This document shows, one piece after another, positions 6,649 to 61,308 of a stretch of DNA of 64,000 bases (positions are counted from its first letter, which is position 1; each line of letters starts with the position of its first letter). The position numbers were made by a program, and so were the translations under genes. The stretch lies in the NCBI RefSeq assembly GCF_035083965.1, contig NC_089739.1, forward strand, positions 4,780,198-4,844,197, given 5' to 3'. This DNA comes from Branchiostoma lanceolatum. Taxonomy: Eukaryota; Chordata; Leptocardii; Amphioxiformes; Branchiostomatidae. Below the pieces are notes generated by a model, which worked only from the letters and a program-made list of their open reading frames with translations, did not search any database and was not told the origin of the DNA.

Positions 6649-9600
6649 TTATGTTTCCTGTGTAATTTCACGGTACCGGTGGAGGGATCCTTGCGATATT
6701 TGATACATGGGTAGGTGTCGGTAAAACGATGGAACGATTTGGCAGATGAAACTCTCCTTCATACGGCAGTCCAGGTCGTACCACTTGTCTGCAGAGTAGG
6801 CGGCGCAGTCGTCCCGGCTCCCCGCGTGGTTGGGCTGTCCCGCTGCCCACCCGCTGTAGCCTCTCCCCAGAGCAGTGCCGTCCACCCACTCCCACTCCCC
6901 TTCCTCTCTCTCATCATGTAAGCCGAACCTTGTAACATGTAGATAAAGCTTTATATGCATAAAAAGAGATTGAGGAGGTAAAAACCTATGAAGCATACCA
7001 GCATTTCTCACGATATCTTCAAAACTGATACTATTATGACTAGTGTTATTGTTAGCTGGTATATTATTGTAAGATTGTTGAAAACAGTAGATGCATTGAT
7101 TTACCATTATTTTTGACTTACTGCTAAATTCTAAAATGTCGGCTCTATAACAAACAGGTCTTAACAAGCAGTAGGTTTGTGACAAGTCCATGGTCATGAC
7201 TAAGTGATTCAGGAAAATGAAGCAAATTGAATGCCAATACGACAGATATTACATTGTAAAACCTCTTAAGTTTGTGGATAAAGTGTGATCCGGTTTGAAG
7301 AAGCTGAGATTAAAGAAAGAATGTATCGTCCATGGAGTACCTTTAACAATATTGTTACATTGTAATTACTTAGTTCTCAAATAAAGATTATATCATTGAA
7401 AAAAAAGTTACACGAACCAAATGCCGTGACAGATGGACTCCTCTTCCATGAGTGAGTTGAGGAAGACGTCTATGGCGACGTCTCGGGGCATGGCGAGGGT
7501 CCCCCCGTCGGCCCGGCAGGTCTCAGCCGATTCGGAGAACGATTTCCGTTCGTTGAACAGCTTGTAGCAGACTCCGCGATACTTCTTGTAACCTTTAGGG
7601 CAGGTTCCTGAAGAAAAAAGAGTCTGATTATAGTATTTCAATGTTACGACATAGGTGTGTTTACTTCATTATTACTTCATTTAAAGTGCCCACGAGCTGT
7701 CTTGCTTATTCGTATCTGTTGATTATTTACATGGAAAATACATAACTTCGAAAACACAAACAAGCAGACAGACAGGCCAAGAACAATATAGTTAGTTACC
7801 TCTTCCGGGACCTAGACTTTCAAGTCTGAATAATGACTAGTTCTATCAACGCTGACCTGTACTTCCTGCTATGCCGGCAAGTCTGACCTTTGTGATCGTC
7901 TTCCTGTCACTCTATTGACAGTCCATTCAAATAACTACGGACACACATTCCTCACACGGGGTAAAAAACGAAACACCATGTTCGTTTGTTAAATCCAGAA
8001 GAGGAAGACCAGTGTGTTTAGCATCCTTGCAAGTGACTGTAGCTACATAATTTACACAGATTTGAATATCTGGAAAATTCCAGATTTAGACATCCAATAT
8101 GGCGGACACTAGTTACGTCATAGTCACGTGAGTGCAAACATCCTATCTATTGGCTTACCTGGTAGATGAGTCGGAACCGACGCTTTCTCTGATTGGTCAT
8201 CAGCAGGACTCTCCATGTTACAGTCCAGTTTCCCCAGTATTTGCAGTATTTTCGTCTTATTCTCCAAAACGCTCAGTAGATCAGAGTGGGCTGTTCGTGC
8301 CACCATGGCTTCAATATCACGTAGAGCCTTCCCATTTTCTTTAGCTCTGTCCGACAATTCAGCAGCTTTGCCCATAGCCTGCAAACAAAGAAACGTCTCT
8401 TGCAATCATCAATGTACGTAAAATGAACAAAAGTAATTCATGTTTTTGGCAAAGTTTCAGTGGCGAGCCAAATATATTATTGCTAGTATATCTATATGAA
8501 TGCATGCCTAGAAGATTATTCTAAATGTCTAGGAGTAGTACTGATAGGAACTATGTCATTTATTGTTTATGAAATATACGAGTCAGCGCGTTAATATATT
8601 TCAAAAGATAATTTGATGTATTCCTCAAGCTAAGCGAAACATTAAGAAGAACAGAAAACCGAGGAGGGAGGAGAAAACTGGTAGTCAAATCTTCTGTGGT
8701 GCCCCGACGGTAAAATAGTTAGATAGATGAGATGACTAGATTTTTCAAGCCTCCTTTACAAGGTTAGGTTTTCATTTACGATTTTACTGTCCATTTTAAA
8801 ATCTTAATTTCCTCTTACCTGTTGCAAACGGACAGAGGCGTTGGCTTGATTAACAGCTGTCATTCCCTTCTTTTGGTCTAACTGGTTGACTGACAGCTTT
8901 AGGTTCCACACTGTCAGCACTGTAACAGAACACAACGCCAGTAAATTACACAGTAAATACAACATGGTAAATATTTTCGATGTCCTTTATATTCTAGCTT
9001 GCCACTATTTCTTATTCTCCTACACAAAGCCTCGTGCGCGACCTATAAAGTATACCTTGGGGAGGCTCTGCTAAATCGGGCTGAGGTTTCTATCTATGGT
9101 GAGCGTGGCCAGTCTCTAACCAGCTGTCAGCCAATCAGGAGGTCGCCTGAATATTGTCTTTAGGTAAAGCCGACTCTCTGATTGGCCGACAGCTGGTTAG
9201 AGGCCACGCCCACAAAAGTGGAAACCTCAGCCTGGTTTAGCAGAGCCTCCACAAGCTATATTGTATTGTCCGTAGGCAAGGCTATGCGTAGTATAATGTT
9301 GCTGTTTTTCAATGATAGATATTGCAATACTCACTTAGAAAAATAGCAATGCCCAGTAGGCAGACGTTCAGAGCTATGGTCAGCTTGGGGAGGTTCTTCA
9401 TCATGATGGCTCTGGTCAAGCCTTGGGGCTGACCAGGAGTCCTCATCCCGACCCCTGGGATGTAACCACCGGTCTCAGAAGATCCAGGGTTGGCAACGAT
9501 GGGCTTATCGTTAGACTGAGCCCTGGAGGAAACTGTATGATAAAGTCAACATTTTACGTTCATGCTATATCATAAACCGACCTATTGCATCTTAGGGTTC

Positions 9601-47015: not shown

Positions 47016-50000
47016 TCACATGCCAGGCATGAAGAAGATTTGTTTTCCTAAGGTATGTTTGACGTATGACATCTGTAGGGGTGAGCTTCGCCCGGTATAA
47101 CTGTCATGGCTGCCTGTACTAGCAACGCAGTCCTCTACCCTTCCCATCATGCTCAGCAGATCTTCCACGCATGCGTACTCGGTAAAGACTCGCACTATGG
47201 CGTTCAGGAAGCAGTTTTCAGGCGAGCATGTTCTGTCTTGTACGATGAGGGAGGAGGTTAGTACGGGAGTCGTTAAAGGGGGAAATACGGTTGCCTGTGC
47301 CACGAAGAAGTCGCTGTTGTCCGGTAGTCTCGGTTCTTCGGGTGTCACGATGAGGGGACCGTAGCTGTTGAGACTGAAGGTTAACTTGAAGCCGTTCCGT
47401 CTCGGTGAGATTTCCCCCAGGACGTCGGGGTTGCCCATTCGCTGCGCCTCCAAGACAAGCTCCATGCAGGTCTGATAAAGGAGAACACAAAAAATTCAAA
47501 CATCATGATTATTTTTGACATTGTCAATGGCTTACTTATATCTTTCAAATGACGCACAACACCCGCATATAGAGCAACAAATGCCGTTAAGATGATATTA
47601 CTTCCCATCTCTATATTCAATGAAACAATTGATGACCTACAGCAACCATACCGTACAGCTATTGTCAGCTAAAATAGCCTAAACCACATGCAGCTGAATT
47701 ACATTACAAGAACGATATAATATTTACAATACGGATGACTAAATAAGTAGTATACTGAATCTAAGTACAGAAATAATTTCCCTTTCTCACCTGAATGAAG
47801 AACATCTTGGGCTGTCCCATGAGGCTGGGGCAGCGTGTGTGCTGGAAGTGTGACGTCAGCTCGTTGATGAACACCGGTTGTAGGTCCGTGCCGACCAGTC
47901 TACCCGAGGCGTCCCCATGGGCCATGACCACCACCACAACGGAACTGTACCGGCCGCTGAACTCATGGTACTCGTCGGACAGCGAGATCAGCGCTTCGAC
48001 GATTTGCTGACGGGGATAGACAAGTTGTTAAGTTAAGTGTAGATGAAATATTCACGTTTTCAAGGTAGAGTGGGAGTAAGATAAATCGATAGAGAGAGAG
48101 AGAGACAGACAGAAAGAAAGAGAGACAGAGAGAGGGACAGAGAGGGAGAGAGAGGCAGAGAAAGATATGAACAGAGAGAGAGAGACGGGTAGAGACAGAA
48201 AGAGAGAGACAGAGAGAGGGAGGGAGCAAAAAAATTTCAGAGAGACACGGAGAAAGAGAGAGAGAGAGACAGAGAGAGACAGAGAGACTCGAATAGACAA
48301 GAGAGACAGAGGGAGTGGTAGAACATGCTGCCTGATGTTTAACTTGAATTATGTAAGACATAGGAATTGTGTGTAATAAAAATGGTTATGAACAATACAC
48401 AATTACATCAAAGGAAGACTTTAAATTGACAGAAAATTATCGAATATCAATCACTTGCTGCTTTTACAACACAGAGGAAATTTGAATGTACTACTCACTG
48501 ATGACGTCAGGTTCTCCTTGACAACGATCTGGTAGCCCAACTGTCGGAACAGGCTGGCAAGGCCCCGTAGGTCCTTCCTCACGCTATGTCTGCACTTCAG
48601 TTTGTTCCGCACGATCTCGTTACAGATAATCAGGCAGATTCCCTTGGGCTGGTGGATGTCATAGACGGGAAACTGTCGCAAGATGAAGCAGGAAATGTCA
48701 TCAGCATATAATGTCTATCAATGATAACAACAACTTTCTATCCCGTCATCTTCAACAAGCACACGACTGAGGGTTTTTTTGCTTTGTTGCACCATCCGGA
48801 TAATTGCACGAAATACGCTGACAAATGGGATTTGTAGGTAAGCGGGTTCTACAATCAATCTATTTAGACATAGAAACATAAGCAGGTCTCACTATGAAAT
48901 ATACACATCTATCTGTATAGAGACTTTGATATGTGTCACTAAACATATCACATCTATATCTACATAGAGACCTAAACATGTCTCACTTAACATATGTCAC
49001 ATCAATCTAGACACAGAGATATGATCACGTCTCACGCACTAAACATATAACACATTGTAGTATTTACCGTTTTCAACTTCTCTCGAGTCATCCTGTTGGG
49101 AAGCACGGAGATGGCATCCGGGGACTGATCTGTGAAAGGTAAAAGAGTGTACAAGATAAGGACAGAGAGAAAATATCCTCACCCCCGAGGCGTCGCCAAA
49201 CGATACACAAAGAGTTGACCTTAAAGATAGGAACAGTGATGACAATGTCATCGCCACCTTTCTAGTACACACCGATGTTGCGATTTACACTGAGTGATGA
49301 TGGCCATAATAAGTAGTGCTTCTTCTTGCAGACTTAGCCCCTGGTATACATGTAGTGTGTGCCAAGTGTGGTCCAAGGGCTGTAGAGATGGACCACTTTA
49401 CCAGCTGAAACATAACGTGACACCACACACGACAGGATATAGAAAAATAAGAATGGTGTAATTATAGGTTTTGCAAAGGAAAGGCTTATTCTGTTTTATC
49501 CTTGGCCCATGGGCGTCGCCATGATAATCTGTGACGTCATGGGTCGGCCATCTTGAATTCTAACTTGTTTTCACCTGAAACATAACGTGACACCAGGCAC
49601 GACAGGAGATAGAAGGATAAGAACGCTGCACGAACCTCTCCACAGTGATTTGAGCGAGGCGTCCATGATGCCCTTGACGTAGTCGTAATCCTGCGTGACC
49701 TTGTCGTGTTCGGTGTCCAGGAAGATCAGCTCCTCACGCACCGCGCGGAAATCCAGCTTGATCCGCTCTCGCCTCTCTTCTAGTTGCCTGAAACGGTAAA
49801 ATGATGTCTTGTTTCAAAGGGACCTAAGCTAAATTAGAGCCAAAATAATGAAAATAAAAAAATCTGGAAACTTTATTGTAGCTAACTTGACATTTACTAA
49901 CACTGTTAAGCTCATTTGCGTACTAACTTCATTCTTTGAGCATTTCAAAACCTCGCAAAAACGTGCCGTACGATGATCCCCTTAGTTTCTCGAGCCTACA

Positions 50001-52818
50001 AAAACCCCAGTGACGATTTTTAGTGAGTTCTCACATCACAACGACATCGTGCTTTTGTATCATGAACGTCGCTATACATTGTGAGTGTTGTTGGAACTAA
50101 TCATGTATAGAAATAACTAAATGGATTGACTTTAAAAATCCTATTTTCGGGCCCAAATATTGGGCCCCTTTGATAAGCTGAGTTGAAAAGTTTGATGGAT
50201 TCTTGATAGATGCTTTTTTGTGACACATTTCTAAGAGAATGACAATACTCAATAGCATTGATGCCATCCTATGTAGTTTACCCGAGCTCCCATACTCGCT
50301 CTCCCACAGACATGTCTATATTCCGATTAGTGACTGACCGAGTGTGGGAGATCCGGTAAACTACATAGGATGGTACCCTAGATAAATACACAAGACAATA
50401 TCCCTGAATCATATTAGAATCTATTGAATTGCATAACCGCAATTGCAATACATGTTCTACACAGAGATTCATGGTAATGTTAACTACGCAAAATAACATC
50501 TTGGATAACATAATGATATATGTGGTACATGATGTGATAGAAAGCTTGATTGTAGGTACTTCATAACACTAAAGTTGTCTTAGACTTACCGTAATTTCTT
50601 TTTGGCGTGCCTCTGTCTTTCCTTCATTTGCATGAGTTCTACTCTTCTTTGGTCGAAGCCTCCTCGAAGGAACTCCTGTTCTGACTCGTCAAATTCTTTT
50701 TTTCGTGACGACAAATCCTCAAACTCCTCCGTCCTTGTGTAAAGAGCTTCTTGTGTTTTTGCCAGTTGTTCCTTAGACTGGTTGAGCATGTCTCTGATTT
50801 TGACTGCCCCTACTCTAGTTGATCGCAGTCGCTCTGTCATGCTCTTGATTTTTCTCTGAAGCTTTCTCTCTTCTTGTAGCAGTTTGTTTACCTCCCGCTC
50901 TGCCTGTTCTAACTGATCTGATGTACCCGAGTACTGGCTACTGAACTGAGAATCTTTAGCGTCTCGTTCGAACTCTCGAACATCTCGCGAGATCTCGTCG
51001 AAGTCTCGTTGGGCCGTCTGCACGTTGTTCTCCAGTTGGGTGATTTCTTCCTTCTTCGACTGCAGCATCTGAGGGGTGTCCAAGGAGGCGCGGCGCGTCC
51101 ACAAGTTGTCTAAGTTATTTTCGAACTGAGAATGAATCCGCCATTTTGTGGTGAGGTCGGTGATTATGCATAGTATGCCTATCGCTTTCGGTACTACTAC
51201 AAGGACAGGGAATCGCTTCTCGTTCGGTATCGCTTCGAACGCGTGCCCGTCGGTGATTTGCTTGTAATCGTCCGACAACAACTTCTCACATTGCTGCCTC
51301 CCCTTCACGAGGTCTCTTCTAACTGCCAAGAGCTCGGCGTTAAACTCGGCACTGATGGCAAAGTACGTCAGAAGAGGCGTGATCAAATACCTCTTGATGT
51401 CTGTGAAAAGAATCTTCACATAGTCGATCCTATTCAGGAGCATGCGCAGGTTTCTCACGACGTCATTCTCGTCCTCGTTATCGCGGTGGATGCCGATTCG
51501 CTTAGTTTCCCACGTGATCCACTCGCGCAGGGCTTTGATGGTGTCACATGACTCGTGGCTCTTTTTCGGGAGGCCATATTGTCGTCTACGCTGGGCAGCT
51601 ATTCCTAGCATTCGACTCACCTCCTCTCTGAAAAACTAAATTAAGTGAAAGAACATTAACAATGTCAGTAGAATACCATAATGTATTCGTTTAACTGTAA
51701 GATGTAAGCAAGCTCAAACCACCATTATTACTTAATCGCGTACAAGTTTGTGATAGCAGACATAAAAGGTCTTGCTTATAGGCGACTGTAGCTTGTGTTT
51801 TCCTATTGGCACTTGCTCTCCCATGACGTCTCCTGTTAGTGATACTTTAGATAGAACTCATCTTACTTCACAATGAGAAACTACAATCCGTCTACATTCA
51901 TGGCAAAATGCAATAGAATAAAGTAAAATGAAATAAACTCTGGCGCTTTAATCGTGTAAGTTGCGACAGTTAAAATCTGCAATGTGTTTCTCATGGCCAT
52001 TTGCTAACATTTTTCTTAATTTCTATCTGACAGTGTTGTAATTGTCCATACCTTGTCGTACTTGGCTTTCTCTGTCATGAGAGCCTGTCTGTAGAAGTGT
52101 TCCTGCATCTGCATCAGAACTCCTCTCTCCTCGTCTGACGCGTCCTCCATAGCCTCCTTCTTAGTCTAAAGGGTGGGGAGGGGGTGATGCACATATCAAG
52201 AAAGTTTCACATTACAGAAAAGGTGGGATCTTTTGTTTTTCATTGTTTAAGTTAGATTTTAGAGGCGACATTTGAACTGGAGTAGTCTAATGTTATATTG
52301 TTCTCAACTTAATAAGGTGGAACGGTAGTCAAAGATGTATATTATATAACTGTCGACTCATCACAATAAAACAAAATATTACAACAACATTTTCAGAAAA
52401 CAAACTTCCAAAACAATAATCGATCATTTCTTATCCCCCTTACGACACAACGACGAAAACTCATAGCGTAGACCTTAAAACATTGGCAAGCCACTGTCGG
52501 CCGATGTCACACTTATTGCAAGTACTAAGAGGCAAGGCCATTGAGGTTACATGTAGATATGGTGTACTGTCAAATATGACAACCAATCAGCATGCTTACT
52601 GAATTAATCATGAAAATACAACCGCTAAGCAATCTTCCAATAGTTGTCTTTGCTATCCACATATGCTATTACTCTCAAATGAAAGCATGTCAATGAAAAT
52701 CACTTTAACGAATTGAATTATTGATTATCAAATAACGATAACATTTACTTACATAGTTAGCTACAGAGTGACTCCTTGGTGACAAGTCACCGTTGAATGA
52801 ATCCATTAGAGACGACAT
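47016..52818 (-). CDS. Coiled-coil/caspase-like fusion, catalytic residues present
   Basis: Eight exons on the minus strand: 52753-52818 (ATG), 52052-52165, 50590-51635, 49636-49787, 49068-49129, 48499-48672, 47791-48006 and 47016-47471. They give 761 residues. Residues 1 to about 300 are mostly helical; about 220-450 is a strong coiled coil rich in E/K/R/Q. The caspase-like region is about 481-761. It has a p20-type strand (GICLIICNE), helix and strand (LFRQLGYQIVVKENLTS), catalytic His568 (VVVMAHGD) and catalytic Cys612 (FFIQTCME in place of the usual QACRG). A p10-like part follows (DFFVAQATV ... KQIFFMPGM). No clear counterpart of the second S1 arginine is seen, so Asp preference is doubtful. 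No CARD or DED is present. The start of exon 3 could shift by a few codons (AG choice). Confidence 0.85.
48085..48310 (+). repeat. GAGA/GACAGA purine-rich tract
   Basis: Low-complexity stretch of AGAGAGACAGA words in an intron of the caspase-like gene. The Leu/Ser-rich and Arg/Glu-rich open frames across it are artefacts. Confidence 0.95.
49402..49630. repeat. Duplicated intron segment next to an exon
   Basis: GAAACATAACGTGACACCAC at about 49405 recurs as GAAACATAACGTGACACCAG at about 49575. Each copy continues for about 40 bases through ACGACAGGA and ATAAGAA. The second copy ends a few bases from the donor of exon 49636-49787. Confidence 0.8.
49810..50165 (+). repeat. Dispersed 340-bp repeat, family C, copy 2
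   Basis: Aligns along its length with 20222-20575 in the same orientation (see shared words listed there). It lies in an intron of the caspase-like gene. Confidence 0.85.
50264..50373. mobile_element. MITE-like inverted-repeat element
   Basis: CCATCCTATGTAGTTTACC on the left is the complement of GGTAAACTACATAGGATGG on the right. Inner arms CTCCCATACTCG / CGAGTGTGGGAG also pair. It is 110 bp and intronic. Confidence 0.85.
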
Positions 52819-52830
52819 CTTAGTACGACT

Positions 52831-55800
52831 CTGAAAGAAACAATAACAGAAGATTTGAGTTGAGTTGTGTGTTGGGGCCCAGAAGGGAAAAGGAAACCAG
52901 AAGCTTTTTTATAGAAACATAGGGTGGCTATAAAAACTCTCTTTGCCAGTTCTTTAGATCTGCTTGGTGATTAAATCTTTTGTTCCTTGCCAGCGGTGTA
53001 CCCAAAAATAGCTAGGGGTGGTAGCTTTTAGCTAAAAATAAGGACAGAGAGAAAATGCCCCCATACCTGAGGCGCCGCCAAAATACACAATACTTGAGAG
53101 TAGCATCCATGTATGAGAACCATTCATCAACCTCATAAATATGTCCTTCTTGTAACTGTGTTTATTAGAAGGACAAGACGTGGTCCTGGTAAACGCCACA
53201 GTTTGTTCAGCCCAGTTTGCGAAACCTTTTAACACTATCGATTTAGTGGCGGGTTCTTTTGTAAGGGTTTGAACTATGGCAGAAGTGTAAACATGGCAGC
53301 CACCGCCGGGCTACCACTCTCCATTCAAAGTACACAGGGTCGTTTAAGTTACGTGGGAATGTTGATTGCCACCCTACTTAACCGTGCAAACGTGTAACAT
53401 TTAACTTTTAACCTTCTAAGGGTTTTGGTATAAATAGATTACTGGGAATTAGTAAAAGGTCAATCAATCAGTAAAAGGTATGATCATCGGTATTTCTAAT
53501 GTTCATGAACAGCTTTTGATTATTATGTGAAAGGCCTTAGCCGCGAAAAAAGACATTTAAAACGTATTGGTTTGCTAGTACATGTGTTATAAGATAGAAT
53601 ACAGGTCTTTATTTCAAATGGCTCACAAAAAGTTCTTTTTTTAATCTCTTCAAAATTATTGCAATCTCCAAGAGTAAATCAAAGAATTCTATTTTTGATT
53701 TTATATTTTTAATATACAGTTGACTATTGGCGGTTATTTTGAATGCTACTAGTTGAATATTATTCACTGAACGAAAAACAACACACCAAAAAAACAGTGT
53801 GCCCCCACCCCCATGTCCAAGTCAAAACATACGAAACATCTGATAGGCTAAAACACAGTGGGGGTGCAACCCGATATCCTACCACCATACATAACCAACA
53901 TTTCAGGGTTTTTCCCAGTCATCTACTCAATAATTTTTTCTTCGATTTTCTGCAATACACCTTTCTGTCAGCATATAGTTCAAATGATTCTTGATGTAAC
54001 CGTTTTCTTGCATATATAATCTTTGAAGTAATGATCAAATTAGTTGAAGGTCACCTATAACGTGGGAGGTTGCATTTCACCGCCGTTTTAAGATCGCTGC
54101 TGTTGGTTAATCTTTTTACAACAACTGGGGCATGCAAAATCACAACAGCTACTACATTTTTCTCTCTTGTGTGTCAACGATAATTAACAACGTGAATTGA
54201 AATCATGCAAACTATGGATATAATAAGCGTAGTTGATTTACGATAACCCTAAGCCAAGAAAGCTAATAATTTTGGTTGTGAACTAATGAAACCCTTGATA
54301 TGACACCGGTCTCCCATCTTGGATCACCTACATTTCTGACCATGTTGACACGCACTGAAAACTGTGTAAGGGCTTCCGTAAAGTAGCAACAAAGTATCTC
54401 CTAGGTATGTCCTGACAACAAAGTACACACCTCAAGATCACTCCAGCGTGTAAACGGTTTGCACTGTTTCTATCGCATGTCTTTCAAGACGCTCACAGCT
54501 CCAGAACATTGCCAGGACCCTATAGACATCCGTTCTTTCAGACACTTGTAGTGCCTAGTGGCACATAGGGCAGCAAGTTTCCTTGCTGTTTTGATCAGTA
54601 GCAGGACGTATTTTTACATGGAGGGGTTGCTAGCCATTCCCTTTTAACGTGCTCGAGACACATCCTCGAACAGGGGACCCCCATTATACGTCCCTTCAGA
54701 AGGACCGTCACAGCGCCAACCGAGATGGCTTCCCAAGATTGAATCAGGGTCTCTAAGCTACAAACTAATAGAAACAGGAGCTCAACTTTGAGGCTGTTAC
54801 CAGTGGAGCTACAGGGACATACCTTACTATAGATGTGACTAAGAACAAATTCTACAGTATTTATGCAAGTGGCACGTTAGGCAAAGTAGAATGTATTTAC
54901 AACTGTACTTATAGAAGTGTAAAGTATTATCAGAGAGAAAATAAATATGGTGCTGTGTATTTCTTATGAACAAATGGTTTGAACTTTTCCATATACACAG
55001 CCACTATACGGCTTGTATTACTTTTACAAAGGAAGCATAGTTTGCCCTTACCTTAGTTTCCTGATGATGGTCTGTGCTGGCCGTGAAGAAAGTTTTAGCT
55101 GGCCAACCTCGGTTGGCAAATCTAGTCAAAAATTGATTAAGCTGATTCAAAAACTTGTGATCACATCACCTAGCTTTTAAACCACGAGTCCGTAGCTTTC
55201 AAATCCATCCTTTCGATACTTAAAAGTTAGCAATTATTACATAATGTTTGGTGGTCAAACGTCAATCAAATTACACGAACAGATTTACAGAGGTTGTCGA
55301 TAGGTGTCCCTCCCTCCCTCCATTTTTGTTCCAGAAACTGCGACATTCTTACCAAGTGTTACTATGCGCCAATGACCCATGAGCCACTGCGAAGAAATTG
55401 AGCACCTTTCACTTCGACGGTTCCATTGTAATAAGGGTACTTAGGAATATTTTACAATATTGTATTCTCACTAAATCATATCAATATTTCTTTTACCAAT
55501 AATATTGTTTTTATTGTAACGCATATCAAAACTATGGATATCATATCGTGCTCATAAGAATTCTGAAATACGTTAATGCGAAATAATTTTTTTCTATAAT
55601 CATCCCTCGTCTATGCAGAAGTTCGCGTCGTCTTTTCAAGAACGACCGTAGCCAGTGTTTCTTCTTGTTTGTACAGTGGTACTGTTGTGAATACCTTCTA
55701 TTGTTACCTTCTCGCCTTACACATACACAGCCAAACACAAAGGAATTTTAAACCCTTGATGCAACTAAGCCGGTGGGGCATTAAACAGAATTGTATGGAA

Positions 55801-56792
55801 GCGTAAATGAATAGAGACTGTTGAAAAAAGCACTTGGGGGTGCCGCCGTTGTTAGGACTGGATATGTTACATGCATTTCTAACTAGGACATACACATTTC
55901 CTATATATTCCGCTAGGTGGCGCGATAGAAAACATCGACATTTATCTGACGCAATTCGTCGCAAAAAGTTTGGAAACTTGTTTTCGGTCCTATATGAACA
56001 AGAAGAATCATAGTAGAAAACATCATATATCCCACACCACATTTATTTCTGTTCCTAATGAACAACTAACGAATTATACATAAGAAAGCATCTACTTTTC
56101 ATCTGACTGTAGATTCGTCGCAAATGAGTTTGGAGACTTGATTTTGGTCATTGATGGATAAAAAGAATAGCTGGAGAAATCATATATACCACACCGCATT
56201 GATTTCTATTCCTAAGTAACAGCTAGCGAATTAAAAATGTCAAAATTTACATCTAAGAACAGTCACATACATTGCATGACTTTTCTTGATCTACGACAAC
56301 TGTGCGATGCATCCACGACTTTTACCAAGACGATGTTACTGTTACCTGTCTTATGTCTGTCGTACACCTGTCGTACGGCATTATGTGACAGGGTCTTCAA
56401 TGACGACAACACAGACGATTATGTGTCTGCGTGTTATTAAGTAAATAAAGCATCTAAAAGGACTAATTAGTGATATTACATTATAAACCACAAGTAGGTA
56501 GATAGTTGGCCTTTAAGTCAAAGATAAGATTAAGTCAAGCGTATATCGAAAGTCTCCAATCCAATTCAAGTATGGTGTCAATAGTACTAGTATTTGTAAA
56601 ATATACCACAATGCAAAAGTGCACATTTCTTATGCGCATCGTATATGTTACACTGCTATACGATTTCACTGATGCTAAGATGTGTACAGCGTAACATTGA
56701 AATGCCTTATCATTACGTATTCTGCTTGCTTTTTGTTCAACAAATGGCTCGGAATGGGCTTTAATCTCAAAACATCCTTACAAAATTGAATT
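52831..56792. other. Intergenic between the two caspase-like genes
   Basis: The upstream gene's 5' exon begins after an acceptor at 52831-52833. The region holds a dispersed stretch at 53030-53100, similar to 49150-49215 (AAGGACAGAGAGAAAAT, GAGGCG.CGCCAAA). It also holds a SINE (54525-54835) and A+T-rich DNA. TTTATT at 56042 is a possible distant poly(A) signal for the downstream gene. No convincing coding exon is seen. Confidence 0.6.
54525..54835 (-). mobile_element. tRNA-derived SINE, minus strand, near full length
   Basis: On the minus strand it starts with GTAGCTCCACTGGTAACAG (box A), with GATTCAATC as a weak box B. TCCTTCTGAAGGGACG, ATGGGGGTCCC, GAGGATGTGTCTCGAGCACG and CACGTTAAAAGG follow. 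Next come GCTAGCAACCCCTCC, CAGCAAGGAAACTTGCTGCC and CACTACAAGTGTC. Its two ends match the plus-strand copy at 17341-17625. Confidence 0.88.
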
Positions 56793-59700
56793 TTAAACCC
56801 CAGGGAAGAAAAACAACTTCTTCGATGGAAAACACAAGTATGAGAGACCGTTATCTGTGGTCGAACCATGCGAGTTCTGTTCGTCTTCTGCGTCTGCGCA
56901 GTTGCCATCGCAAACAGGTGCAGCCTTGACGCTACTGCGCATGTGCAGCTCGTGGCGCACACGGTGGAGTATTGTCGTGAAATCTTCCGTTGCCGCAAAA
57001 TGTGTGAAATATTTGACAAATGTCTGTGCAGCTAGTGTGCCTTGAACTGAGTCCTCGCATAAGAGATACCCATAGGACGGGCAGCACGCAACGAAGACGT
57101 CACTTTTGGACGTCCCACCTTGGTTGTTTCCGCCATCTTTGTCATCCTCGTTATCGTTTGGCAAGTCAGGCTCGTAGAATCTGCTGTAGAAGTCGTCGTC
57201 GTTGGTGGTATTGACGTCATCTCCGGAAGGAGTGTCCATCAACAGGAACAGCGTCGGCTTTCCCTTCATCTTCTTGGCAAATGCATCCTGGGAATAATAA
57301 AAGCGGATACCGCTTAGCAGAAAGTTTGTTCCATTTGACACCAAAGCTCATACATGATACTGCATACGATTAAATATGAACGTCTGGGACGCCATATTGG
57401 TGGGGTGGATAGATCCAAGATGGCGACTACGCACAATAAAGGAATAATTAAAAGGATGTCTGAAGCTCTCTAAACAATAGGGATCGAACTAATGAATAAA
57501 GAGGACATATCGACAGTTCTCCAACCAATCAACGGAGTGGGCGGTAAATGACGTCACAGTCACGTGACTGCAGACAAGCTATCCTTTCATACCTCGAATT
57601 GTGCCATGAAGTCCCGATGTGAGATTCCCTGTTTGTCGGAGCCGTGCAGGCGACGGTCATGTCCCGGGCTCAGTACCACCACCACCAGCGCGCTGCATCC
57701 TGGGAAGTTGTCCTCCGCCAATCGGGAGGCCTGATTCTCCATCTCCTGGCGAGAGAACAAAATGGCGTCTGGTCACGTGCTTTTAGAGTTAATCGTTTGA
57801 GCTGTCATTTGACCTAACATGTTGATTGCGGACAGAGCGTACAATCTTGAATGAAAGCGATAACGCGATCGACCGTTGTAGTCTCGTCGATAACAACTGT
57901 TTGCTTGCAGTATACAACTTGCAAGCCTTCAAAACACAGTGACCGCTTTCTTCTGTCATAATCATCTTCATCTTTCACCAACTTACGAATACTTCAATCC
58001 CTAGAAGTGGTCAACTATGACCTTGCATTGAACAAACCCATTAAAAAACAATTTGAATATGTCTGTAACTCTCGCGAGTGTATGTTCTGGAGTGATTCAG
58101 GTCATTATTGGTCCCGAAGAAGGCGACAGTGTTCGTTAAAAATTTGATCCGTGAATACCTTTATGTTAGTATTGGAAGAAAGTTTAGTATTGTATTATGA
58201 TTACTACCAACACAGATGAACTTCTATGAAAAACACACACACAAAAAAAAACAATGGCTTTAGGAGAACAAAAGTAACATCTTAATGTCCTACCGAGGCA
58301 GTAATGTTTTCTTCCAAGGTCACGGCGAACCCCAGCTGCTCAAACACGTCCGTCAGATGTCTGACGTCACGATAGTCGTCATACATGGTGCAGTGGGAGT
58401 CGTTATTGATGATGATGGCCCTGCCGCGAGGGTGTGACGTCATCTCGTACCATGCCTCGCCTCTCTTTGAACAAATCAAAATAAATTTTTGCTTATCAAT
58501 ATTTCTTAGAGTAATGATAGTCTAACCTACTTTTTTGAGCCCTGGAAACCCCATAAGGCAACCACAATACACTCTACTTCACGTTACAATATCAAAATTT
58601 ATTACTCTGAATAGAAAAACATTTTTTCTTATAGTTGACATTCTAAGGCAGTGTGTATGTTATAAGTTTTAAAGTTTCATCTGACAAAAGTGATTCTTGA
58701 CATGAGATTTGCAGTAACCTTTACAATTTGAAGTTAATTTATTAAGTCGAAAACATTTCATTTGTCATTTACTTCTAAGGAAACTTTGTATTAAATATTC
58801 CATATGATGTTTCTGTTTACATCAGACATTTCTAGGACGTACCTTTTTGAGGTCACTGACCCTGACCTCGTTTGGCCTTACCCTCACGCCCCTCTCCGAG
58901 TCCACCCCTCCGTCTACCTGCCATTGGATTCGCCTGACCTGTTCCACGTTCCTCATGGCGTAAAGGTAATCTGTGTGTAGCGAGTGTAACTTCAGCTCCA
59001 CATTCGCAGCAGACGCATTCAGATCTTGCAACCTCTTTCTAGCGCTGTCTCGCTCTCTCTCCAAAGTCTCGCGCAGCTTGGCGAGACCTGTGATCCTCCG
59101 CCTGTCGTCTGCAATCTCCAAGGTGATACTGACGAGGTTGTGCTCGGATTTCTCGTACCAGTCTTTGACTCTGTATTTTTCCTCGAGCTTCTTTCTCTTG
59201 TCGTTGATTTTGATCTGATTTCTGTCAAAATCAACGACGACTTTTCTCTGTTCGGCTTTTATCTTGTCTCTCTTGTAGTCTCGCTTGTTCGGTATGTTAC
59301 GGAGTTCGTCTTTTATTTCGACCGCCATTTTCTGAAGCTTCGTCCGTTCCCATAGCAACCCGTCTAACTGCAATTCTAGCACTTCAATTTCCTCATGAAT
59401 CCCTATAACCAAATTGATAAAACAGAATATCAGTTTAAATTTAAGTTACAATTTCCAGACACTAAACTAAATATTTAACACAAAATCCAAAATATTGCTT
59501 TACCTTTTTGTTGAGAAATGACAGCTTTTACTCTTTCCAATCCTGCGACGTTGTGACGTAATCTCGTCTCGCGATCAGCCATTTCTCGCGTGACTGCGAC
59601 GATCCTCTCGCTGATGTCATCAATGACGTGACGCCGTTGCATCTCCTGTCGTCTGACCAACCAGCGACGCTGCTCAACCTCCTCAAGCTTGTTTCGATAT

Positions 59701-61308
59701 CTAGTAGAAGAAATTGAACCGAAAAAAAATTGCATTTGCTTTCATAAGTATGTTAGCATAACCTCATCTTTGAACCTCAATGTATTCAAACTCATATTTA
59801 AACTCACTAAGAATAGCAGATGGATGGCAATTATTTGGAAATTTGAAATTTTTTAAAGAAAATGTACCATGCAAATACCACAGTAACTAACCTGACATGA
59901 ATCCTCCATTCGTGGAAAAGGTCAATGAGATGACGTAACTCCAGGTACAGGAAGGGAACGAGGCTGACAACAGGGTCCTTATCCTGCACATTCGGCCGCA
60001 GCACATTCGCTTCGACAAAATGCTGATCCAGCAGATTTTTCACATCCTTCGTTTCGACCATAATCCTGTGCAGTTCTCCTTGAAGGTTGTGGTCCGTGTG
60101 ACGCTCTATGCAGAAATATCTCTCCAGGTATTTGTAGAGGTGCTCGAGTAGGGAGCGGTAGAATCTTCTCAGCCATTTGATCTCGTTTCTGAATCGCAAG
60201 ATGGATTCCAGTCCGTCCCCGTGTTTCAGGATGCCCTTGCCGTACTCGTACCACTCGTGCAGCTGTTTGATGGACGTGACGGTTTCAAGGCGCACCTGCT
60301 CTCGTGCCCGGCGTTCTCTGATCCGACTCAGGGCATCTGAGGTAGAAAAGGTTGTGAACAAGGAGGTTCATGGTTCTAACTGCGCATGCTCAGCAAAATG
60401 CATTGCGGATGCTATGGCAAATGTGAAGGCCATACTTACAAATAGTGCTTGTCTCAACCATGCTTACTGCATGTCTAGACTCCGTCCAAGCAATGTCCAG
60501 ATGCGTTTTGTTTATATCTCAGTGGCCTTCAGCTTTGACATATAGCCCATAATGCATTTCGCTGCGCATGCGCAGTTAGAACCGGCTTAAGCCTACTTGT
60601 TCAGGAAACGTAAATTAGCTACTAAAATGATATATAACAAGGATATCAAGCATATCAAAGCAAATAAATATATATAGTTCATATGGGAAAAGTAATCTGA
60701 AACCTGATAGGGCCAGAAGGAGGCCTTCGTTGGCTTGTTTTTCACGCTGGACCAGCATGCACCGCGCGGCGTGCTCCTGGGCCTGCATCAGGTCGTCTCT
60801 CAGGTCACGTGACGCAGACGCCATTTTTTCATCAGAGGTCTGGAAGTGTAAATCAACGTGTACAGTTATAAAAACATTATCATTTCACTGGTTATTTGAC
60901 TAGTATGGGGGGGGGGTCGCATAAAGCGATATGACAACAAAAACAAGCGATATCTTAGATTCACACTTTCAACCGGTTATGTATACTAAGGAGGTTTTAT
61001 ATAAGACATTCTTGGTAAACACAACCCTTTTTCAAATTGCTAAAATGTTTTTTTCAGCTTCGTTTACTGTTAAGTTTTAGGTGAAGGACTATTTGCATTC
61101 CAGGTCAATTTGCGTCCAGATATTGTAGCATACATGTGGCGTTCCATGACTATTCTCTTTGCTACGTTGTACATATGTACTTCTTGGACCGCTACTAGTA
61201 CAGTGCACTGAAAGAGGCCGGCGTTCAATGATAACAGTGTATACTTACAATTTTCTCCATCTTACTGTCACTGCGACTGTGCTTCTCAGACTTCCCGACT
61301 CCCTTCAT
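56793..61308 (-). CDS. Coiled-coil/caspase-like fusion, catalytic residues lost
   Basis: Eight exons on the minus strand: 61249-61308 (ATG), 60704-60839, 59892-60336, 59504-59700, 58843-59402, 58294-58464, 57593-57745 and 56793-57287 (stop TAA). They give 738 residues. It is a paralogue of the neighbour, with the same order: short Ser-rich start, ALSRIRERRAREQ helix, helical block, long coiled coil (about 215-440) and caspase-like region (about 467-738). The p20 part keeps GRAIIINND and VFEQLGFAVTLEENITAS. The His motif reads LSPGHD: Pro550 where His is expected, with His552 two residues on. The Cys motif reads LFLLMDTPSG, Thr593 replacing Cys. A long acidic linker (DDDFYSRF..., NEDDKDGG) precedes the p10-like part. 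It probably lacks protease activity. An alternative start is the Met at position 17. Confidence 0.86.
60372..60583. mobile_element. MITE-like element with ~60-bp terminal inverted repeats
   Basis: GGTTCTAACTGCGCATGCTC and CAAAATGCATTGCGG on the left pair with the complements of GCGCATGCGCAGTTAGAACC and CATAATGCATTTCG on the right. GAAGGCCA / TGGCCTTC pairs further in. It lies in the intron just upstream of exon 59892-60336. Confidence 0.85.

Follow-up and report, generated by a model that had tools for sequence, protein, structure and literature searches.

Two caspase-domain genes lie head to tail on the minus strand of a 64-kb stretch of the Branchiostoma lanceolatum genome (contig NC_089739.1; the whole stretch of 64,000 nucleotides that was analysed is referred to as the window). 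The exact coding spans are 61308-56793 for gene A and 52818-47016 for gene B, in the same orientation and with 3974 bases between the stop codon of A and the start codon of B, and together they match precisely the interval of 47016-61308 in which a sequence-only reading of the window had placed a tandem pair. Each gene has eight coding exons, which encode 738 amino acids in protein A and 761 in protein B. In both proteins a conserved helical domain and a charged stretch precede a caspase domain, the catalytic dyad is present in B alone, and the sequences support an enzyme-type/pseudo-enzyme pair of caspase-domain paralogues in tandem.

Gene models and origin of the pair

Both gene models were assembled by eye on the raw sequence, with reading frames and splice signals as guides. 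The two models have 14 introns in total, all of them GT-AG, and the model frames contain no internal stop, compared with 28 and 44 stops in the other two frames of B and 26 and 34 in those of A. The joined exons come to ~2.2–2.3 kb, and an open coding sequence was obtained in none of 2000 base shuffles, for A and for B alike. GC content at third codon positions (GC3) was 0.64–0.65 in the coding sequences versus a GC content of 0.36–0.37 in the introns. Judged by these sequence properties, gene A and gene B are real genes. Their first coding exons, as given by the splice model, are 61249..61308 in A (residues 1–20, start codon at 61308) and 52753..52818 in B (residues 1–22, start codon at 52818). 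Acceptor-like sites, read by eye directly upstream of both start codons, suggest that both genes have extra non-coding 5′ exons.

Gene A on its own is intact, with 738 codons, a GC3 of 0.636 versus an intron GC of 0.361, and an ATTAAA at 56765, 28 bases past its stop codon, and it therefore likely encodes a maintained protein. The possibility that gene A is a decayed pseudogene was dropped in view of the open frame, the GC3 and this polyadenylation signal. Because the models rest on this by-eye assembly, we also considered that the helical and caspase exons might be separate genes wrongly joined. We regard such an error as very improbable: phases are consistent over the 14 GT-AG introns, the exons follow the same order in both paralogues, the 5/6 introns agree in phase, and exon 5 of gene A (59402-58843) by itself covers both a charged, presumed helical stretch and the linker that leads into the caspase domain.

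Proteins A and B can be aligned over their full length, with 22% identity over 795 columns (E 4e-28). Introns 1/2 and 6/7 fall at the identical place and phase (phase 0) in both genes, and intron 5/6 shares its phase at positions ~2 residues apart. The corresponding exon order described in the sequence-only reading thus holds at these introns, but not at intron 2/3, where the phase differs with an offset of ~7 residues, at intron 7/8, which is offset by ~17 residues, or in the middle of the N-terminal half, where the exon division differs between A and B. Given the common introns and the end-to-end homology, the most likely origin of the pair is the duplication of one gene that already carried helical and caspase domains, and going by sequence divergence this most likely happened long ago. 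No further copies were found in the window by tblastn or by phmmer on 1657 reading frames of at least 25 amino acids; these searches matched the genes’ own exons, gave cross-matches between A and B, and otherwise returned only two weak tblastn matches, at 11.1–11.2 kb (E 0.55) and at 59.2 kb on the other strand (E 0.76). Scans of viral contigs with B exon 3 (5 pattern-matched stretches) and B exon 8 (12 stretches) confirmed no relative.

Caspase domains and active-site residues

The caspase-like region read from the letters of both genes was borne out by a profile search, in which both proteins match Peptidase_C14 (PF00656) well above the cut-off. The match covers residues 490–731 of B (E 7.9e-26, 91.6 bits vs a cut-off of 21.4) and residues 479–700 of A (E 6.1e-21). 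At E ≤ 0.01, B matches 181 distinct PDB sequences and A matches 68, with zebrafish caspase-3a the best relative of B (7.2e-21) and an ancestral effector caspase that of A (4.9e-9). The best 60 PDB matches of each protein are animal caspases or designed/ancestral versions of them; CED-3 is present among those of A, and cFLIP is absent from the best 60 of either protein. A metacaspase or paracaspase identity was dropped, since these best 60 matches per protein are animal caspases; the models of those two families themselves were not applied.

Within p20, B is 38–39% identical to three reference caspases and A is 26–29% identical to them, with 28% identity between A and B, so that B looks like an ordinary caspase in this part and A appears further diverged. 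The p20 regions of A and B align with a Smith-Waterman (SW) score of 124 (z 22). Further along, the p10 of B aligns with that of caspase-3 over 64 residues and the p10 of A aligns with that of caspase-9 inside the whole-domain match. The final p10 strand, which is part of the caspase dimer interface, is similar in the two proteins (KKLFFFPGV / KQIFFMPGM).

We next compared residues of the active site. In B, p20 begins in exon 6 (48499..48672), which carries Arg508 of the P1-Asp pocket; exon 7 (47791..48006) carries His568 and Gln610, and exon 8 (47016..47471) carries Cys612 within a QTCME pentapeptide, followed by the linker, p10 with the probable Arg690, and the stop codon. His568 and Cys612 occupy the dyad positions of caspases. 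In caspase-3, Arg64, Gln161 and Arg207 hold the P1 aspartate, and Arg508, Gln610 and probably Arg690 of B correspond to them. The first two are identical to their counterparts in three caspases, and Arg690 was aligned with the p10 Arg of zebrafish caspase-3a by phmmer, in a weak match (E 0.64), and with that of caspase-9 by MAFFT across 11 extra residues.

At the same five places A has Met493, Pro550, Met591, Thr593 and Glu652. Its pseudo-p20 begins in exon 6 (58294..58464), Pro550 stands in exon 7 (57593..57745) where the catalytic His is expected, and exon 8 (56793..57287) holds Thr593 at the place of the catalytic Cys, an acidic linker, a pseudo-p10 with Glu652, and the stop codon. Met493 was placed beside an alignment gap. 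The five-sequence MAFFT alignment has a gap in A under Cys612, and Thr593 was paired with this residue by ungapped extension (KPTLFLLMDT / QPKMFFIQTC); under either alignment, residues 585–640 of A contain no Cys. The dyad claim of the sequence-only reading was thereby upheld, with His568 and Cys612 in the gene at 47–53 kb and Pro550 and Thr593 at the same places in the gene at 57–61 kb. Because of the residues at these five key places, A is by sequence a pseudo-caspase. B and the three caspases share the same residue at 34 p20 columns; A keeps 18 of these, yet none of the four that are catalytic or line the pocket.

The intersubunit linker of gene A, encoded in exon 8, is very acidic, with 11 Asp in residues 594–650 vs 3 in residues 613–680 of B. 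To judge from its composition, this linker is a possible caspase substrate.

The N-terminal helical domain and the charged stretch

Ahead of the caspase domains, residues ~21–228 of A and 23–247 of B form a helical domain of ~210–225 residues. It opens with a conserved LMQxQEHxxR leader, encoded by exon 2 of A (60704..60839; splice model) and by exon 2 of B (52052..52165; residues 23–60; splice model and alignment with A exon 2), and it contains a conserved WRIH motif. Exon 3 of A (59892..60336) continues the helical domain and has WRIH at its end, and exon 3 of B (50590..51635; residues 61–408) holds the remaining helical domain, to residue ~247, together with most of the coiled coil. The domains of A and B align at SW 141 (shuffle mean 34, z 20; blastp E 2e-13), a score reached by none of 1000 plain shuffles and none of 1000 heptad-position-preserving shuffles. 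Given this score, the shuffle tests and the blastp match, the N-terminal ~210–225 residues are a real conserved domain at the sequence level, separate from the coil.

We searched for relatives of this domain by profile and by structure. No Pfam family scored above its cut-off ahead of the caspase domain in A or B, no NCBIfam match was found for the helical domain, and a PDB profile search with the N-terminal domain gave five weak matches, none convincing, the best being a tropomyosin/GCN4 coil at 0.012. CARD, DED, Death and Pyrin gave no match at E up to 1 with the whole proteins or up to 10 with the N-terminal domains, a sequence-level negative that is limited by the HMMER filters, which discard most matches above ~0.1. 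The absence of a standard prodomain, claimed in the sequence-only reading, accordingly stood within these thresholds. AlphaFold, run on single exons with two-row alignments, modelled the helical domain as helices with low confidence. The mean predicted local distance difference test score (pLDDT) was 57.6 for B exon 3 and 47.4 for A exon 3, and in the B model it lay below 50 in 16 of the first 19 ten-residue blocks, those that hold the helical domain. A Foldseek search with the B exon 3 model gave no match at E ≤ 0.001; with the threshold relaxed to E ≤ 10 there were 190, the best 50 of which read as noise.

Conservation of the helical domain between A and B equals that of p20 in strength (z 20 vs 22), which suggests that the N-terminal domains of the two proteins bind the same partner, and the role of the domain is presumed to be recruitment.

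Between the helical and caspase domains, residues 229–440 of A and 248–458 of B are charged, with few Pro and Gly. In A the stretch takes up exon 4 (59504..59700; charged, presumed helical; splice model) and continues in exon 5, described above, and in B it ends in exon 4 (49636..49787; splice model), with exon 5 (49068..49129; splice model) encoding the linker into the caspase domain. We looked for heptads with a crude test, using 56-residue windows and 300 shuffles each; the period grid was coarser for the shuffles than for the real sequence, a slight bias in favour of the latter. The B windows over residues 229–368 showed a periodicity of 3.4–3.5 residues that was equalled by 0, 0, 6 and 2 of 300 shuffles, and the next three B windows were equalled by 83, 168 and 11. 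For A, the corresponding counts in seven windows from residue 201 were 127, 78, 119, 56, 194, 90 and 39. The last part of the B exon 3 model consists of long helices, and of its final 16 ten-residue blocks 13 have a pLDDT of at least 70. A four-row alignment (A1) placed the coil fragments of A doubtfully and was not used in modelling.

A coiled coil is therefore likely in B. The coiled-coil prodomain of the sequence-only reading remains likely for B, through the periodicity in residues 229–368, and heptads were not seen in A. Pairing of A and B through the coil, as inferred in that reading, is conjectural. Its broader picture, a helical and coiled-coil front followed by a caspase region, was right as to the caspase domain, which starts at residue 479 in A and 490 in B, and needs revision as to the front, the conserved part of which is a separate helical domain.

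A proposed caspase and pseudo-caspase partnership

The long prodomain and the conserved dyad suggest that B is an initiator-type caspase. We give about an even chance to a reading, built largely by analogy, in which B is an initiator-like caspase on a helical prodomain that replaces the death fold, and A is a tandem pseudo-caspase that modulates B by hetero-oligomerising with it. The helical domain and coil would cluster B, two B caspase domains would then meet and become activated, and active B would be expected to cut after Asp. Protein A, which has the same prodomain without an active site, would enter the same assemblies as B, and in a heterodimer of the A and B caspase domains it could either steady the active site of B or limit the processing of B. 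In this way A would set the activity of B, in the manner of cFLIP(L) with procaspase-8, and the pair would have a role in cell death or immunity.

Several observations weigh against this reading. The active-site pentapeptide of B is QTCME, not QACxG, and 11 extra residues precede Arg690 in the alignment with caspase-9, given which the activity or specificity of B may be altered. The p10 of B alone reached a best E of 0.058 against PDB, which is not significant, and linker and p10 of A and B are alike only at SW 53 (z 6.3). The charged stretch of A showed no heptad signal in the seven windows from residue 201, and in the coil region A resembles B only weakly: the SW of 91 was reached by none of 1000 plain shuffles (mean 52, maximum 90) but by 3 of 1000 heptad-position-preserving shuffles. 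The loss in A of all four catalytic and pocket columns speaks for the reading, at a chance of 0.039 if losses are random; the figure is weak, given the three reference caspases and the random-loss assumption, and lends modest support to the idea that the loss in A was directed at function.

Taken further, the QTCME pentapeptide in place of QACxG, the additional residues ahead of the presumed P1-pocket Arg and the weakly matching p10 of B would fit a view in which neither protein works as a protease: B too would be a pseudo-caspase, or else a highly specialised protease, and A and B would both be structural coiled-coil proteins. We find this improbable, as B has the dyad, Arg508 and Gln610 where caspases have them, Arg690 can be placed, and the p20 of B retains 38–39% identity to three caspases.

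The closest parallel for the proposed partnership is caspase-8 and cFLIP(L), to which the sequence-only reading had compared the pair. The cFLIP gene adjoins the caspase-8 gene (PMC11121540), and cFLIP(L) and procaspase-8 favour a heterodimer with one active site over the homodimer, in which cFLIP has Arg315 and Tyr360 in place of the dyad and cFLIP(L) promotes or blocks death depending on its level (PMC7586951). Like A and B, these are neighbouring genes with the dyad in one alone, a prodomain and caspase fold in common, and a long prodomain suited to clustering. Unlike A and B, they carry DED, none of which was found here, the replacements are Arg/Tyr vs Pro/Thr in A, and the A–B heterodimer is predicted. 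The likeness to cFLIP is one of analogy alone, with no DED and with other replacements.

As an independent scaffold or dominant-negative decoy, A would compete with B through its helical domain for an upstream platform, without any heterodimer of caspase domains. A and B resemble each other most in the N-terminal domain and p20, and the lower p20 identity of A to three caspases (26–29% vs 38–39% for B) seemingly reflects looser constraint, both of which suit a decoy. Against this, A retains p20 and p10 including the last strand, which a pure competitor could drop, as in cFLIP(S) (PMC7586951), and we judge the decoy unlikely.

A second parallel is found among invertebrates, in Aedes aegypti, where the decoy CASPS18 is regarded as enhancing CASPS19 (PMC4840389). 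These too are paralogous caspases of which one is a decoy without catalysis, but they differ from A and B in being called homologues of Drosophila Decay in the cited part of that work.

Amphioxus itself is reported to have 45 or more caspase genes, with shuffled domains, of which seven are of unknown class (PMC3196919), and the A/B pair may sit unlabelled among those seven. So large a family, together with an A–B identity of just 22% overall, would suit a history in which A and B are unrelated in action, having come from the usual kind of tandem duplication within an expanded caspase family, after which A drifted into a different role. This seems to us somewhat unlikely, as A and B are still neighbours and share the same three-part design. 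The amphioxus fusions with DED-DD, DD, TNFR or LRR resemble A and B in joining a caspase domain to unusual N-terminal parts, but the TNFR and LRR fusions keep QACxG (PMC2575513; PMC3196919), unlike the QTCME of B. The amphioxus caspases covered in the cited portions of these two papers carry parts of the death-fold, TNFR or LRR kind, and no helical/coil prodomain and no member without the dyad is described there.

Prodomains named in the part of a 2025 review cited here are CARD, DED, pyrin, the Ser/Thr-rich one of STRICA and the caspase-like one of caspase-16 (PMC12292325). The last two resemble those of A and B in having no death fold, but neither is described there as a helical domain with a coil. 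In the open-licence literature, judged from titles and abstract openings, we found no published description of the A/B architecture. Caspases and pseudo-caspases as such are already known; what appears to be new is this prodomain, along with the pair that is based on it.

A stronger version of the partnership is that this is a caspase-activating system without a death fold, in which a helical recruitment domain not described before, together with a coil, carries an initiator caspase and its obligate pseudo-caspase partner, in an independently evolved working like that of caspase-8 and cFLIP. We hold this to be doubtful. If the proposed partnership is right, it would provide a separately evolved caspase that is controlled by a neighbouring dead copy and has a prodomain other than a death fold, and with it a test of whether pseudo-caspase control is a general way of tuning initiator caspases. 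Should adaptors or sensors of this animal also contain the N-terminal domain, that would indicate a cell-death or immune pathway not yet mapped.

Elsewhere in the window, animal-type exons (trypsin, LDLa, SEA and C-type lectin) occur between 6 and 42 kb. On the plus strand, 13–42 kb holds a series of exons of the SEA, LDLa and trypsin types; some frames also have hydrophobic stretches that, judged by eye, resemble single transmembrane segments, and the region is consistent with several membrane-bound serine protease genes. A C-type lectin exon (PF00059, 3.6e-11) lies at 6652-7248 on the minus strand.

Intron 4 of gene B contains repeats of two kinds. Two 57-base copies, at 49402-49458 and 49572-49628, are 86% alike, and when read on the gene strand both start pyrimidine-rich and have TTTCAG near the end, in the manner of a 3′ splice site; they could allow alternative exons. 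A 55-base repeat, 80% alike, links 49153-49207 in the same intron with 53035-53089 upstream of the start codon of gene B, and is possibly the remnant of a mobile element.

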